From assembly GCA_021824575.1 (NCBI GenBank), contig JAKAKJ010000082.1:1-38844 (forward strand): a stretch of 38,844 nucleotides of DNA. Direction: 5' to 3'. This stretch comes from Chloroflexota bacterium (GTDB lineage: Bacteria > Chloroflexota > Anaerolineae > Anaerolineales > Villigracilaceae). The notes beneath the pieces were generated by a model. It saw only the letters and a list, made by a program, of their open reading frames with translations. It searched no databases and was not told where the DNA came from. Positions within the stretch are counted from its first letter, which is position 1. Every line of letters begins with the position of its first letter. Made by a program: the position numbers and the translations under genes. Of this stretch, positions 3,966-26,494 are shown one piece after another.

Positions 3966-6900
3966 TTATTGAGTAACGAGCACGAAAGTGCCCGTCAGAT
4001 TGGTTTGGGCCCTGAAGAAACCGTCGGGGGTTTTGGAGCCGCCGATGTCAACCCACTTGGCCCCATCCCAATGCAGTATGGTGAAATTGGCATTCTGCTT
4101 GTCGGATGGGATCTTGAAGCTGACAATCAAGGAACCATTGGAGGAAGGTACAACTTCAACATCGAAGGCAGAAATGAAAGTGTACTTGCTGTTCAGCTTG
4201 TTGGGCAGGTCATTATTTGCCTTGTTGGTCAGTGTGGCGTTGCCGGTAGTCGGGCATGGCAAAAGCACATAATCTTGATTTGGCAGCACGAGTTCAGTAC
4301 CACTGAAGTTGGTGCAATCAAGAGCATTGCTTTCACCGCTGTTAACGTTGATTACATTCAGAGGAAGGCCGCCGCCAACCGTTCCCTTACTTCCTGAAGC
4401 GCAATTGCCCGTGTTGGTGACTAAAGTCCCGCCGCCACTGATATCGGTAGCGCTTACGGTATTGCCGCTGAGCGTCACACCGTTCAAAGTAATGGTGCTT
4501 CCGCCGGGTATGTCTGCCAGGAGTCCGGTACCGGAATTATTATTGAAGGTACTGCAATGAATATCAATATTACCCGTCGAAGCAATGAAAGCGCCGCCGC
4601 CACTGTTGGAAGTACCATTTCCGTTTGCAGTGACATGGTCAAAGGAAACAGTACCTCCTGTTCCTAAATCCAGTATTTCAATTCCTCCACCGAAACAATC
4701 GCCAAGAGCACAATTTCCACTGAAATCGCTATTTGCAACAAATACGTTGCCGCCATTATGAAGAATCAGCGCACCCACAGCAGCCGCAGAACCTGTATAA
4801 CCATTTGCGGGGTCATTACCATTGTTGTCAGCTGTGACACCTTGTAAAGTGATATCGCCATTTCCTATTGAAAATACAACGAATCCAACGCCTATATCGC
4901 AAGTTGTGCAATTCTCGCTGAAGTTGCTGTTTGCAATGGATACGCTTCCTCCATCAGTGCCCAGAAAAGCGCCTCCCCCCTCGCCATAGCCATTTCCAAG
5001 AGCTGTAACTCCACTCAAAGTAATGTTGTCATTGGAGACTGCATACAGACCGACACTTGGCGCTAGATTAAAACCATTGTCATTGAACGTGTTACTGCCA
5101 GACAGAGTGATACTGCCGTTTCCAGTCGTATTATCCAACTCGGCACCACCGCCAGCATTATCGATCGCTATTACATTGTTAAGGGTGATGTCACCGTTTG
5201 AGTGGGCAATTAGGCCTCGGCCGGTAGTGGTAGTACCATTCGCGCTGAGGTTGCCGTTGTTGATACTAATCCCGCCGCTACCGGAAGTATTATCGAGGTA
5301 AGCACCGTCGCCGCCATTATCGCTGGCTATTACATTGTTGAGGGTGATGTCACCATTCGAATAGGCAGTTAGGCCTCCGTTGGTAGTGGTAATGCCATTC
5401 GCACTGAAGGTACCGTTGTCGATACTAATCCCTCCACTTCCGAATTTATTATCGAGGTAAACACCGTCGCCAATTTTGTTGTTATCTGCAGTGACATTGC
5501 TGGCGCTGATGGCTCCCTTGGCTACGACCCACAGGCCATTTCCGTTGTTCCCATCGAAAACATTCGCGCCGGTCAAGGTGACCGAGGGCGCCCCTGAAGT
5601 TGCGTGTGTAGTGTCAATATAAGCGCCGTCGCCCGTGACACTGTTACTGGCGGACAGGTTATTGATGGTTATATCTCCTGTCGACCACATGGCAATATTG
5701 GTGCCGTGATTGTTATTGAATTCATTCGTACCGGTGAGTGTGACGCCCGAACCTGTGTTGAAAAAGGTGTTGTCAATATACAGGCCGTTGTTACCTGAAT
5801 TATTATCAGCAGTTATGTTATTGAGAGTCGCAACTCCGGAAGAGTAAATACTTATACCGGCGGAGCCGTTAGTATTGAATTCATTGGTTCCGCTCAGGTT
5901 GACATTATTCAAACTAGTTCCCCCATTGCCCAGGATCGCACCATTTATATGATTTCCATCAGCGATCACATTCGAGAGGCTAATGTCTCCATTGGAATAA
6001 GCTTCGATGCCGGACCCATGGTTATTATTGTTACTGAAATTATTCGTACCATCCACGGTAATACTCTTACCAGTGCCGGAGGTATTGTTCAAATAAACGC
6101 CGTCGTTATAAGCATTTTTCGATGTCACATGATGGACGCGAATGTTGCCTGATGTTTCGAGATCGAGATTATTACCAGCGGAGCCGTTGAAGGTGAGATC
6201 ATTGGCGGTCAGATCGTTCTTCCAACCTGTGATTGAAATGTAAGCGTTGGTGAAATCAGATGTACCGGTGATTGTGCCAGCGCTGGAACCGTTCCAGCCG
6301 CCTTGAAAGGTCAGTGCATAGTTGGCCCAGGTTGTAAGAGAACCACCGTTCATGCTGATGTTACTGGTGGAGCTATCCGCACCGGATGTGATCCAGATCG
6401 TACCATTGGATGTAGGCTGGTTGGAAGAAAGATAGGTGACCAGATTGTAGAGGTTGGAGTATGAACTCGTACAACCACCTGTACCTGCAACTGGCGAAGC
6501 GCCAGCCGGACACCAAATCGGGTCGCCAGTTGCGATGATATTTGCGGCGGCCTGTGTGGCCAACGGCTGAACAGCGCCGCTATTGTCCACAGCGACCACC
6601 TGTGTGCCGCTCGGAACCTGAGCCAATGCTGTAGCCGTTGCGGTAGCAGTTGCGGTGCTTGTTGCAGAAGGTGTGGCATCAGTCGGTGCTGCAGTTACAG
6701 AAGGCACAGGGGTGTCGGTTATGGTCGGCGCTTGTGTGGCGTCTGTGGGGGCAATTGTCGTGGCTGGAGCAGGTGTATCCGTCGTCGCGGTTGGAGCGGG
6801 TGTATCCGTCGTTGCGGTTGATGCCTGTGTAGCATTTGTTGGAGCCGCAGTAGTGGCTGGCGCACTTGTACTTGTCGCCTGAGTCGCGGCTGGCGTATCG

Positions 6901-18371: not shown

Positions 18372-18474
18372 GAATAGAACGCGGATAACACCGATTAAGC
18401 GGATATTCGCGGATGCAGATAAAATAAAAAACATCCGCGAGAATCTGCTCGAACCGCGTAAATCCGTGTTCTAT
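18372..18474. repeat. palindromic repeat, family E, copy 1
   Basis: The left half GAATAGAACGCGGATAACACC ends in GCGGAT motifs, and the right half is its imperfect inverse (ATCCGCG ... AATCCGTGTTCTAT), giving a ~100-bp hairpin. It begins just after the pyrB stop. Copy 2 follows with a period of 109 bases. Confidence 0.75.
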
Positions 18475-18480
18475 ATTGAT

Positions 18481-18578
18481 GAATAGAACGCGGATGACAC
18501 CGATTAAGCGGATATCCGCGGATAAAAATTAAAAAATCTGCGGAAATCCGCCTGATCCGCAAAATCTGCGTGCTATTT
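18481..18578. repeat. palindromic repeat, family E, copy 2
   Basis: It starts GAATAGAACGCGGATGACACC and has an imperfect inverse right half (GCGGAAATCCGCC ... TCTGCGTGCTATT). It is a tandem copy of 18372-18474 and lies directly upstream of the GxxExxY gene. Its left end forms a perfect 14-base inverted pair with 19007-19020. Confidence 0.75.
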
Positions 18579-19020
18579 TCAATATAAGGAGTCAAGATGC
18601 TTCACGAAGGAATAACCTCTGATATCATCAATGCCTTCTACAAAGTCTATAACACATTGGGATATGGGTTTCTTGAGAAGGTCTATGAAAATGCTTTAGC
18701 AATGGAACTCGCGGAACGCGGTCATGTTGTGAAGCAACAATTACCCATTCAGGTTTATTATGAAGGCAAAGCTGTTGGCGAATATTTTGCCGATATGCTT
18801 ATTGACAACAAAGTCATTCTTGAACTTAAGACTGCCGAAAGCATTGCCAAAGAACATGAGGCGCAGCTTGTCAATTATTTGAAAGCCACAAAAGCTGAGA
18901 TTGGTCTCTTGCTCAATTTTGGCAAAGAGCCGAATTTCAAACGGAAAATCTTTTCCAACCAAAAAGAATCCCAAACATATCCGCGTCAATCCGTCAAATC
19001 CGTTTAATCCGCGTTCTATT
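18482..19020. mobile_element. candidate mobile unit: GxxExxY gene between inverted repeat ends
   Basis: AATAGAACGCGGAT at 18482-18495 and its exact reverse complement ATCCGCGTTCTATT at 19007-19020 bracket a 539-bp unit that contains only the GxxExxY gene. The right half-repeat (about 18977-19020) also encodes the last residues of that gene. The arrangement looks like a gene carried inside a palindromic repeat, inserted between pyrB and pyrF. No transposase is present. Whether the unit moves is inference. Confidence 0.45.
18597..19007 (+). CDS. GxxExxY family protein (PD-(D/E)xK nuclease superfamily)
   Basis: This 136-residue protein has the family motif in GYGFLEKVYENAL (Gly-x-x-Glu-x-x-Tyr at about 24-30). 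The nuclease-like core follows: an acidic residue in YFADMLI and Glu-x-Lys in VILELKT, the pattern of the PD-(D/E)xK superfamily. The biochemical role of GxxExxY proteins is unknown to me. AAGGAGTCAAG precedes ATG 18597. The C-terminal stretch after about residue 122 (ESQTYPRQSVKSV) is encoded by a palindromic repeat and is unlikely to belong to the fold. The gene sits inside the pyr cluster and is bracketed by inverted copies of the same repeat. Confidence 0.8.
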   Translation: MLHEGITSDIINAFYKVYNTLGYGFLEKVYENALAMELAERGHVVKQQLPIQVYYEGKAVGEYFADMLIDNKVILELKTAESIAKEHEAQLVNYLKATKAEIGLLLNFGKEPNFKRKIFSNQKESQTYPRQSVKSV

Positions 19021-19028
19021 TATTTACT

Positions 19029-19871
19029 ATGGAAACCTTTTTCTCTTTTCTCGAAAAACGCGTCGACGATTGTTCCTCGCTTTTATGCATTGGACTCGAC
19101 CCGCATATTCCTGACTTAAAGGAACCCACTGCCGCCTCTGCCCTCGACTTTTGCTTGAATCTCGTCAAACAAACTTCATCTTACGCCGCAGCTTTCAAAC
19201 CCAACGCCGCGTTCTTTGAAGTCTTCGGTGCGGACGGCTGGACCGCGCTCAAACAAGTGATTGATGCGATCCATGCAGAATCGAATCGACTCGGCTCGAA
19301 GATTCCGATCATCCTCGATGCCAAGCGCGGCGACATTGCGTCCACGGCGGAAGCATATGCCAAATCTGCGTTTGAAAATCTCGGCGTAGATTGCATTACA
19401 TTGAGTCCATATCTCGGAAAAGATTCCATCGAACCGTTTATTACTAATTATGAAAAAGGCGTTTTCCTTTTGTGTAAAACCTCCAATCCGGGTTCGGGTG
19501 ATCTGCAGGATGTGTCCGTCGTAGGGGCGACTGGCCAGTCGCCCCTACCTTTATATGAACACGTTGCCTACCTAGCCCAAACATGGAATACAAAAAACAA
19601 TATCGGTCTTGTCGTTGGCGCAACTCACATTGACGCGATGAAACGCGTCCGTGAAGCCGCTCCAGACTTGTGGTTTCTCGCCCCCGGCGTTGGGACTCAA
19701 GGCGGCGATTTGGAATCCGCGCTGAAGGCTGGCTTGCGAAAAGACGGCAAAGGGATGCTGATCAATGTTTCGCGCTCGATTGCCCGCGCCGACAATCCCA
19801 AACCCGCTGCCGCAGAATTGCGGGATCAGATCGTAAATATCAAAAGAGATTTGAATCGCAAAGCCCGCTAA
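19029..19871 (+). CDS. pyrF: orotidine 5'-phosphate decarboxylase, type 2
   Basis: This 280-residue enzyme decarboxylates OMP to UMP, the last step of the pathway. Key segments are GLDPHI (22-27), FKPNAAFFE (57-64) and the catalytic DAKRGDI (97-103), followed by S-P-Y-L-G and TSNPGSGDLQD for phosphate binding. The pattern is that of the longer type 2 enzymes. Residues 165-174 (VGATGQSPLP) are an insertion encoded by a perfect 28-bp palindrome. The last residues and the stop lie in another palindromic repeat. No ribosome site precedes ATG 19029 because the family E half-repeat runs up to 19020, so translation may depend on the upstream gene. Confidence 0.93.
   Translation: METFFSFLEKRVDDCSSLLCIGLDPHIPDLKEPTAASALDFCLNLVKQTSSYAAAFKPNAAFFEVFGADGWTALKQVIDAIHAESNRLGSKIPIILDAKRGDIASTAEAYAKSAFENLGVDCITLSPYLGKDSIEPFITNYEKGVFLLCKTSNPGSGDLQDVSVVGATGQSPLPLYEHVAYLAQTWNTKNNIGLVVGATHIDAMKRVREAAPDLWFLAPGVGTQGGDLESALKAGLRKDGKGMLINVSRSIARADNPKPAAAELRDQIVNIKRDLNRKAR
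19521..19548. repeat. palindromic repeat, family C, in frame inside pyrF
   Basis: This perfect 28-bp palindrome (GTAGGGGCGACTGG and its reverse complement, no loop) lies within the pyrF reading frame. It encodes most of an extra loop, VGATGQSPLP, between GDLQDVSV and LYEHVA. Close relatives with a GGGGCACAGC arm are at 23474-23502 and 26466-26494, both between genes. Confidence 0.85.
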
Positions 19872-19917
19872 GAACGCAAAGAAAAAAGAATCTTTGCGGG
19901 CTTTGCGTTCTTAGCGG
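19865..19917. repeat. palindromic repeat, family F, between pyrF and pyrE
   Basis: CCGCTAAGAACGCAAAG (19865-19881) and CTTTGCGTTCTTAGCGG (19901-19917) form a perfect 17-bp stem with a 19-base loop. The pyrF stop codon lies inside the left arm. The repeat ends just before the AAAGGAA ribosome site of pyrE. It could also act as an RNA stability or partial termination hairpin. Confidence 0.8.
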
Positions 19918-22694: not shown

Positions 22695-23471
22695 ATGCCA
22701 ACGCTTCCTTCCAAGACCGATAACGGCGTGCTGACCCTGACGCTGAATCGCCCCGAACGCGCCAACGCGTTCAACCTTGAGTTGATCGGCGAATTGCAGG
22801 ACGCATTTGCCAAAGCTTCGAGCGACTCTCAAACGCGCGTGATCGTGCTGACGGGCGCGGGCAGTTCCTTTAGCGCTGGCCACGACATCACCGAAATGTC
22901 GAGCGTGCGCGAGCAGGATATTTCTTATGGCGAGCACTTGCGCCAAACGTATAATCCGCTGATTCTGCAAATCCGCCAAATCGAAAAACCCATCATTGCC
23001 GCAGTCAATGGAACCTGTGCGGGTGCGGCATTGGGAATAGCACTGGCTTGTGATTTGCGCTGCGCTTCGGATGAAACCAGATTGGTCGTTGGCTTTGGAG
23101 GAATTGCGCTTGCCCCTGATTCAGCCGTGTCATTGTTTTTGCCGGTTTTGATTGGCTTGGGACGCGCCGAAGAATTTTATTTCAGCAACGCGCCGATTTC
23201 CGCGCAACAGGCATTAGAATGGGGATTGGTCAATCGCGTTTTTTCCCCCGCAAGTTTTATGAAGGAAACGTTGGCTTACGCGGAGCGATTGGCAGCGGGT
23301 CCCATCGGCGCGTTTGGGTTGGCAAAGCAGGCATTCAACAAGGCCGTGTTGCCAAATCTCGAAGAGGCGTTGAATGCCGAAGCCGATTTGCAGGAGATTG
23401 CCAGCAAACACGCGGAACACAAAGAAGGCGTCGCAGCATTTTTGGAAAAGAGAAAACCGAAATACATTTAA
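22695..23471 (+). CDS. enoyl-CoA hydratase/isomerase (crotonase) family protein
   Basis: This 258-residue protein has a crotonase fold. The oxyanion-hole segments are SFSAGHDI (about 56-63) and [18 protein letters not shown] (about 104-121). The position where hydratases carry a catalytic Glu reads [15 protein letters not shown], with Asp as in PaaG-like and enoyl-CoA isomerases, so isomerase or ring-opening chemistry is as likely as hydration. The C-terminal part has the usual [11 protein letters not shown] and a final trimer helix. No ribosome site is seen upstream; a palindromic hairpin ends one base before ATG 22695. No other fatty-acid or phenylacetate genes are near, so the pathway is uncertain. 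Confidence 0.85.
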
Positions 23472-23473
23472 TG

Positions 23474-23502
23474 GTAGGGGCACAGCGCCGCTGTGCCCCT
23501 AC
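23474..23502. repeat. palindromic repeat, family C, between the crotonase gene and gatB
   Basis: GTAGGGGCACAGC, three bases, then the reverse complement make a 13-bp stem. It starts two bases after the crotonase stop and ends 10 bases before the gatB ATG, where the ribosome site should be. A copy differing only in the loop is at 26466-26494. Confidence 0.85.
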
Positions 23503-26442: not shown

Positions 26443-26465
26443 AAATTTATCTTTCCAAAATAAAA

Positions 26466-26494
26466 GTAGGGGCACAGCGACGCTGTGCCCCTAC
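26466..26494. repeat. palindromic repeat, family C, possible bidirectional terminator
   Basis: GTAGGGGCACAGC, three bases, then its reverse complement. It is flanked by AAAATAAAA on the left and AATTTTTAA on the right. It lies between the converging stops of gdhA (26442) and pepF (26512), so this copy may have been taken over as a terminator for both. Confidence 0.8.

Follow-up and report, generated by a model that had tools for sequence, protein, structure and literature searches.

RAYT transposases are few per genome and are not known to leave a target-site duplication. The REPINs matched to them are short extragenic repeats set in inverted pairs able to form hairpins; repeat groups correspond to specific enzymes and far outnumber the gene (PMC3116915). 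A second arrangement is described for the intervening sequences (IVSs) of 23S rRNA, in which one small open reading frame (ORF), the S23 gene, lies within inverted repeats without any transposase; these sequences are excised by RNase III and have been proposed to be mobile (PMC4990558). The TAACTGA heptanucleotide repeats of Beggiatoaceae, cyanobacteria and Bacteroidetes are likewise abundant intergenic arrays of short tandem words, and the passages that describe them assign no enzyme to these 7-bp repeats, which are direct with one inverted case reported (PMC4679880). The present analysis concerns a stretch of 38,844 nucleotides from a Chloroflexota bacterium (contig JAKAKJ010000082.1, hereafter the window), in which a gene of the GxxExxY family is enclosed by inverted repeats between two co-directional protein genes, pyrB and pyrF (named by eye, after the first-pass annotation).

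Comparison with these systems showed both likenesses and differences. As in REPIN/RAYT systems, inverted-pair repeats and a match between gene subfamily and repeat were found for GxxExxY. However, the gene matches PF13366 and not a Y1 (HUH) transposase, so that the enzyme here is a PD-(D/E)xK nuclease in place of a tyrosine transposase; in addition, the arms consist of tandem 9-10-bp words and the gene usually stands within the inverted pair. The likeness to the IVS lies in a single small ORF within inverted repeats and the lack of a transposase, but the window element is situated between protein genes, outside rRNA, encodes a different protein (PDDEXK_3) and gives no sign of RNA-level pairing. 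Perfect 14-bp inverted ends around one gene, with gene-free copies in relatives, recall insertion sequences and miniature inverted-repeat transposable elements as usually defined; the GxxExxY unit nevertheless contains no known transposase, and no target-site duplication was detected at 43 loci. The nearest folds of the modelled protein are Cas4/RecB-fold nucleases (SSO0001, LHK-Exo, ACE1, MGME1), for which we know of no link with matched dispersed palindromes. Taken together, we consider it probable that these loci form a two-part system of the REPIN/RAYT kind, in which a PD-(D/E)xK nuclease, possibly of Cas4/RecB fold, would be the enzyme and would act on DNA. A search of the open-access literature, with most subscription journals and all bioRxiv preprints outside its reach, found no paper linking GxxExxY to palindromes; in the open-access passages that mention the family, it is named just in passing.

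Inverted flanks were surveyed in 151 genomes of the phylum, 35 of which carry the GxxExxY family. Among 97 profile match rows, 73 exceeded 100 bits and were used (24 weaker or fragmentary ones were left out), and two of these were dropped for short flanks, leaving 71 genes. The score of a locus was that of the best alignment obtained when its upstream flank was matched to the reverse-complemented downstream flank, with a threshold of 14. The median score was 18, against 9 for swapped flanks, and 59 of the 71 genes reached the threshold, compared with 17 of 71 in direct orientation and 5.5% of swapped pairs (6.3% in a repeat run). The same procedure was applied to comparator genes, of which 25 of 30 PIN, 22 of 30 Y1 and 29 of 30 S23 loci remained once short contigs were removed. 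Scores of at least 14 were obtained for none of the 25 PIN genes, which came from the same kind of genome, for 3 of 22 Y1_Tnp genes and for 16 of 29 S23-type four-helix genes. A Y1_Tnp match within a frame of about 540-590 amino acids (aa) (G000:C27:90437-90796 and relatives) recurred across many genomes from the family of the window organism and possibly represents a kept fusion protein.

The words that make up the arms also differed between protein families. Among the 50 of 59 GxxExxY arms that were at least 24 nt long, and for which periods were counted, 48 had a period of 8-10 bp. The S23 arms had a period of 7 in 13 of 15 cases and of 8 in the other two, so that each of these two protein families lives in palindromes of its own grammar. 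The inverted repeats of the S23-type genes (L078-L107, TIGR02436), with their period-7 words, may connect to heptanucleotide repeats such as TAACTGA.

The subfamily of the window gene was followed beyond the phylum in a scan with one genome per species, from which the best 80 of 578 matches were taken. These loci came from Chloroflexota, Bacteroidota, Ignavibacteria, Geobacteraceae, Acidobacteriota (including Blastocatellia) and Cloacimonadota, as well as from a planctomycete, a Nitrospinia metagenome-assembled genome (MAG), a Patescibacteria MAG and a Methanoperedenaceae archaeon. Relatives from many phyla, and the archaeon, carry one common arm, AATRGAACRCNGAT..., with a subfamily consensus of approximately AATRGAACRCGGAT-GACRCGGAT-NNRRCGGAT-TTNCRCGGAT and sharp element ends at AATR/GAAC. 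Because the arms of the subfamily are alike, swapped flanks were an unfair control for this set (32% of swaps scored at least 14), and a motif test with resampled flanks was used instead. At 75 usable loci, the inward motif GAACRCNGAT was present upstream in 54, downstream in 49 and on both sides in 43, against 0.3, 0.2 and 0.0 in resampled flanks. The claim of the first-pass annotation that GxxExxY proteins travel with such repeats is therefore upheld by the genes of the phylum (59/71), by the multi-phylum loci (43/75) and by the PIN genes (0/25). As regards conservation, four-fold sites of the subfamily were saturated (28% identical), whereas the first arm word was 80% identical between loci, a value partly due to the selection of loci by motif. 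Conservation was also seen in two parts of the arm that played no role in choosing the loci, the second word (59%) and the outermost AATR (57%). Conservation of the arms despite this saturation indicates that the ends are kept by selection or some active process.

Arm similarity rose with protein identity over 59 loci and 1685 pairs, and none of 500 permutations reached as high a value. From the lowest to the highest identity bin, mean arm similarity was 0.24, 0.25, 0.28, 0.44 and 0.76, the last bin holding 4 pairs; homologous outer flanks were checked for pairs above 55% protein identity. A shared genome was of no help: for proteins 35-45% identical, arm similarity was 0.239 in same-genome pairs and 0.254 in others. 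The proteins of L001 (window genome) and L010, from a distant member of the phylum, are 73% identical, and the CCACAAAGACACAAAG arms of the two loci almost coincide; the four GxxExxY genes within the window genome, by contrast, have differing arms. In six sister genes, 52-61% identical to that of the window, GGAC replaces GAAC in the arm on both sides (6/6), one of them having an additional upstream GAAC motif. On these data, the arm tracks the protein subfamily and not the genome, each subfamily tending to have its specific arm.

Copies of the arm were also found away from the gene. A three-word arm pattern of the window subfamily occurred in 44 of 50 carrier genomes, at least five times in 33 of them and up to 74 times in a planctomycete MAG; reversed, the pattern gave no hit in any of the 50. 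Of 24 genomes whose GxxExxY genes were of other kinds or absent, 2 had the pattern (G055, 3 hits; G118, 9 hits), and its absence from the remaining 22 suggests that the palindromes depend on the subfamily. Two of these 24, G018 and G064, have sister genes of the GGAC type with 58% identity to that of the window; G120, G080 and G046, which have related genes, were counted separately and gave 3, 0 and 0 hits, respectively. Of 30 arm-pattern loci that were opened, 3 contained the GxxExxY gene, and 8 that lacked it had a + and a - arm no more than 100 bp apart. The listed arms of the archaeon were spread over nine contigs, so that a single stray contig is an unlikely source.

Repeat-rich genomes, defined by at least 10 hits of a general word pattern, numbered 30 among the 151 genomes of the phylum sample. 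GxxExxY was present in 24 of these 30 and in 11 of the 121 others (odds ratio 40) and was the strongest of three predictors, the others being S23 (23/30 vs 25/121) and Y1_Tnp (23/30 vs 38/121). Two genomes, G034 and G102, had 576 and 583 general-pattern hits and none of the arm of the window. Two genomes without a GxxExxY match, G118 with its window-type arms and G052 with 32 general-pattern hits, may hold orphan copies, have a missed gene or reveal a gap in the idea.

At the window locus itself, four parts were distinguished in the order palindrome, palindrome, gene and lone right arm:

18373-18474, no strand: complete gene-free imperfect palindrome 1, with left arm AATAGAACGCGGAT... and right arm ending in ...ATCCGTGTTCTAT

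18482-18577, no strand: complete palindrome 2, at the start of the 539-bp unit, with left arm AATAGAACGCGGATGACACCGATTAAGCGGATATCCGCGGAT and right-arm end ATCTGCGTGCTATT

18597-19007, plus strand: GxxExxY / PDDEXK_3 gene of 136 aa, matching the TIGR04256 and PF13366 profiles

18978-19020, minus strand: lone right arm over the 3' end of the gene, whose 14 nt at 19007-19020 are a perfect inverted match to 18482-18495

The 14-base perfect inverted ends described by the first-pass annotation around a unit of 539 bp are as reported, AATAGAACGCGGAT at 18482-18495 having its exact reverse complement at 19007-19020; over 46 nt, the longer arms of the unit pair at 78%. The gene end is indeed made of repeat, as the stop codon and about nine preceding codons lie within the right arm. 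The "empty" repeat proposed directly upstream does exist as a complete imperfect palindrome, but the unit was also found to start with a second complete palindrome that had not been distinguished. Palindrome 2 aligns to positions 2-104 of palindrome 1 at 79%, the first 56 nt of palindrome 1 are 88% identical to palindrome 2, and the left arm of palindrome 1 has the four-word form of the subfamily arm. A search of the complete 3.64-Mb genome (98 contigs) with the repeat DNA gave three matches, all at this locus, plus one 16-bp match with an E-value of 0.33. This confinement to one locus indicates that genes in general are not flanked by it, and the explanation by a common repeat is excluded by the genome search together with the PIN genes. 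The genome has four GxxExxY genes, each with inverted flanks of its own sequence (scores of 14.5-25). Elsewhere in the window, a gene-free palindrome whose words follow the GxxExxY grammar (CGCTAAG, CGCAAAG) is located in the spacer after pyrF (19857-19917). A palindrome GTAGGGGCGACTGG/CCAGTCGCCCCTAC is found in the pyrF frame at 19521-19548, similar GTAGGGGC palindromes are located at 23469-23502 and 26461-26494, and a 159-nt tandem repeat in two copies, 79% identical, occupies 5110-5427.

The pyrB-pyrF site was compared at 30 loci of relatives, that of the window included. The gene was present in two of them, the window and G160, which belongs to another genus; the comparison for an empty site in relatives gave a more varied picture, with pyrB and pyrF elsewhere either meeting at a bare junction or separated by palindromes that belong to other families. 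Identity between G160 and the window was 73% for the GxxExxY protein, 85% for pyrB and 71% for pyrF, and the occurrence of this insertion at an identical position in G160 makes an assembly artefact unlikely. The two may descend from an old common insertion lost in closer relatives, or they may represent two gains. Among 21 gene-free spacers with both neighbours, 4 were at most 17 bp long and 11 of the other 17 had an inverted repeat stronger than any of 60 shuffles, these repeats belonging to several word families; the remaining 7 of the 30 loci comprised 3 long gene-free spacers and 4 without a pyrF hit. The spacers of these 21 relatives (L169-L195), with differing tandem-word palindromes or none, show naturally occurring turnover at a single position.

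The gene product scored 138.3 bits against TIGR04256 (cut-off 35) and 142.2 bits against PF13366 (cut-off 22), the latter being its sole Pfam match. The PD-(D/E)xK residues D66, E76 and K78 did not vary among 20 diverse members or among 62 sequences of the subfamily; G22, G24, E27, Y30, Q90 and Y94 were invariant as well. An AlphaFold2 model was obtained with a mean predicted local distance difference test (pLDDT) of 89.4 and a predicted template modelling score (pTM) of 0.81; residues 123-136, whose codons lie in the arm and immediately ahead of it, are disordered in the model. Its nearest folds are Cas4 SSO0001 and LHK-Exo, the best match being 4ic1 (Cas4 SSO0001; Foldseek E-value 4e-4, VIA Z 9.7, root-mean-square deviation 4.5 across 104 residues). 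Other nuclease or restriction-type folds followed with VIA Z values of 7-8.6, and RecB-like exonucleases and Hjc (Z 7.2) were among the matches. At the sequence level, a search of solved structures returned just three matches, to a fumarate reductase, with an E-value of 0.17. XisH (2okf), a controlling factor of fdxN element excision, was also among the folds matched (Z 6.2), and the distribution of XisH/XisI is described as resembling that of TAACTGA repeats (PMC4679880). Relatives of the gene were found on 1 viral contig and in 8 of 72,556 plasmid records, in a search that had the phage-genome collection outside its scope; phage or plasmid cargo was rejected on these counts, which point to a mostly chromosomal location. 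Two plasmid loci that were opened had inverted-flank scores of just 12 and 11, and on the Fusobacteria plasmid the flanks resemble direct copies of a right arm.

From these data we infer, as the best account available, that GxxExxY also acts on the repeats, as the first-pass annotation had proposed, and hence that the pair may form a mobile system. Under the two-part explanation, the element would consist of arms of about 42 nt, built of tandem 9-10-bp words and inverted around the nuclease gene, for a total of about 0.5 kb, and gene-free palindromes with the same arm type would be its non-autonomous copies. The nuclease would recognise the arm words of its own subfamily on DNA, probably in a hairpin or cruciform extruded in replication, and would cut or nick there; the freed palindrome might then be repaired or copied, and could spread in this way without a target-site duplication. 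Several observations weigh against this explanation. No target-site duplication was found at the 43 loci for lengths of 2-9 (the highest z beyond the arm was 1.94), and no simple empty site with a single palindrome was seen at four places in syntenic blocks of three genomes about 92% identical, whose spacers combine pieces of several repeat families. Fresh within-genome gene copies were likewise absent, the best of 74 pairs being 81% identical (in a tandem trio) with a median of 42%, and no insertion event was caught among the loci compared. The window palindrome has no copies elsewhere in its own genome of 3.64 Mb. Furthermore, 12 of the 71 genes of the phylum scored below 14, the strict motif was missing on one or both sides in 32 of 75 subfamily loci, and the arm pattern was missing from 6 of 50 carrier genomes. 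Lastly, 6 of 30 repeat-rich genomes had no GxxExxY (G002, G015, G052, G065, G096 and G118), and 11 of 35 GxxExxY carriers were not repeat-rich.

Other explanations were weighed against the same data. The foremost of them, which we regard as unlikely, is a homing-like process in which the nuclease would cut gene-free palindromes of other origin and recombination would copy the gene into these target sites. Consistent with it, a complete palindrome stands on either side of the G160 gene, the right halves of the two being nearly identical, and the window unit combines a palindrome, the gene and a single arm. The orders +G+- and +-G-, seen at 6 and 2 of 80 loci, respectively, also favour it; against it, the commonest order was the gene between two single arms (+G-, 26/80). 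In 14 of the 80, some on short contigs, the strict motif was absent near the gene. Target sites of other origin also agree poorly with the lack of the arm pattern in 22 of 24 genomes without the subfamily.

Marginally less likely still is a host function or autoregulation, in which the nuclease would bind the arms as its own operator or as genome-wide marks, while the repeats would be spread otherwise. The ratio of nonsynonymous to synonymous substitution rates (dN/dS) was 0.03-0.10 in four of eight protein pairs tried, and not computable in the other four (three with saturated synonymous sites, one with a stop); for close pairs, these values point to strong purifying selection. Gene copies are few and divergent in each genome, as for a kept host gene, and loci compared here revealed no mobility event. 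An operator, however, does not account for arm pairs that stand apart from any GxxExxY gene (8 of the 30 loci opened), for one arm common to many phyla and tracking the protein, or for the turnover of the pyrB-pyrF spacer.

An RNA-level element comparable to the 23S rRNA IVS, with arms pairing in the transcript and processing by, for instance, RNase III, is improbable. Its appeal lies in the position of the window element between two co-directional genes and in the described architecture of the IVS, an ORF in inverted repeats that is excised by RNase III and proposed to be mobile (PMC4990558). Pairing in RNA should have favoured G.U, but arm mismatches on the sense strand comprised 69 G.T and 86 A.C (p 0.20), and this lack of a G.U excess suggests that the arms act as DNA rather than RNA. 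No Rfam family exceeded its gathering score (four weak matches, the best with 23 bits against 72.6), and an RNA stem was rejected as the main force; conserved words with a period of about 9 bp would also fit DNA better.

Least probable of all is that another enzyme (a RAYT/Y1 transposase, a reverse transcriptase or the S23 four-helix protein) spreads the palindromes with GxxExxY as cargo: Y1_Tnp and S23 are enriched in repeat-rich genomes too and six such genomes have no GxxExxY, but G034 and G043 (576 and 548 repeat hits) have no Y1_Tnp match, G012 and G134 have no S23 match, RVT_1 is unmatched in 7 of the 30, the two-word CRCNRAK motif is absent as a two-sided feature from Y1 (0/22) and S23 (0/29) flanks, and GxxExxY leads a joint linear model (t 8.5 vs 2.2 for S23 and 2.4 for Y1), so that all three were rejected as drivers, being dispensable in several repeat-rich genomes.

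A broader proposal can be made more tentatively, with chances that we put slightly short of even. GxxExxY, with 8-10-bp words, and the S23 four-helix protein, with 7-bp words, would be dedicated partners of palindromes, and the nuclease would mobilise its palindromes by word-specific hairpin cutting without a transposase, forming a minimal class of mobile DNA across bacterial phyla and archaea. Tandem-word palindromes are abundant and unexplained (up to 583 hits per genome in the phylum sample), and, if true, the two-family interpretation would account for many intergenic palindromes of CACAGAG and CGCGGAT type in environmental genomes. GxxExxY itself is common in environmental genomes, bears an NCBIfam name taken from its motif and has no known function that we could find; a protein subfamily tied to its own repeat provides a testable function for both. 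The target word of such a nuclease may be readable from its own flanks, which would supply many natural protein-target pairs for studying DNA choice. If the two-part explanation is correct, the REPIN/RAYT way of life would have a second, unrelated enzyme.
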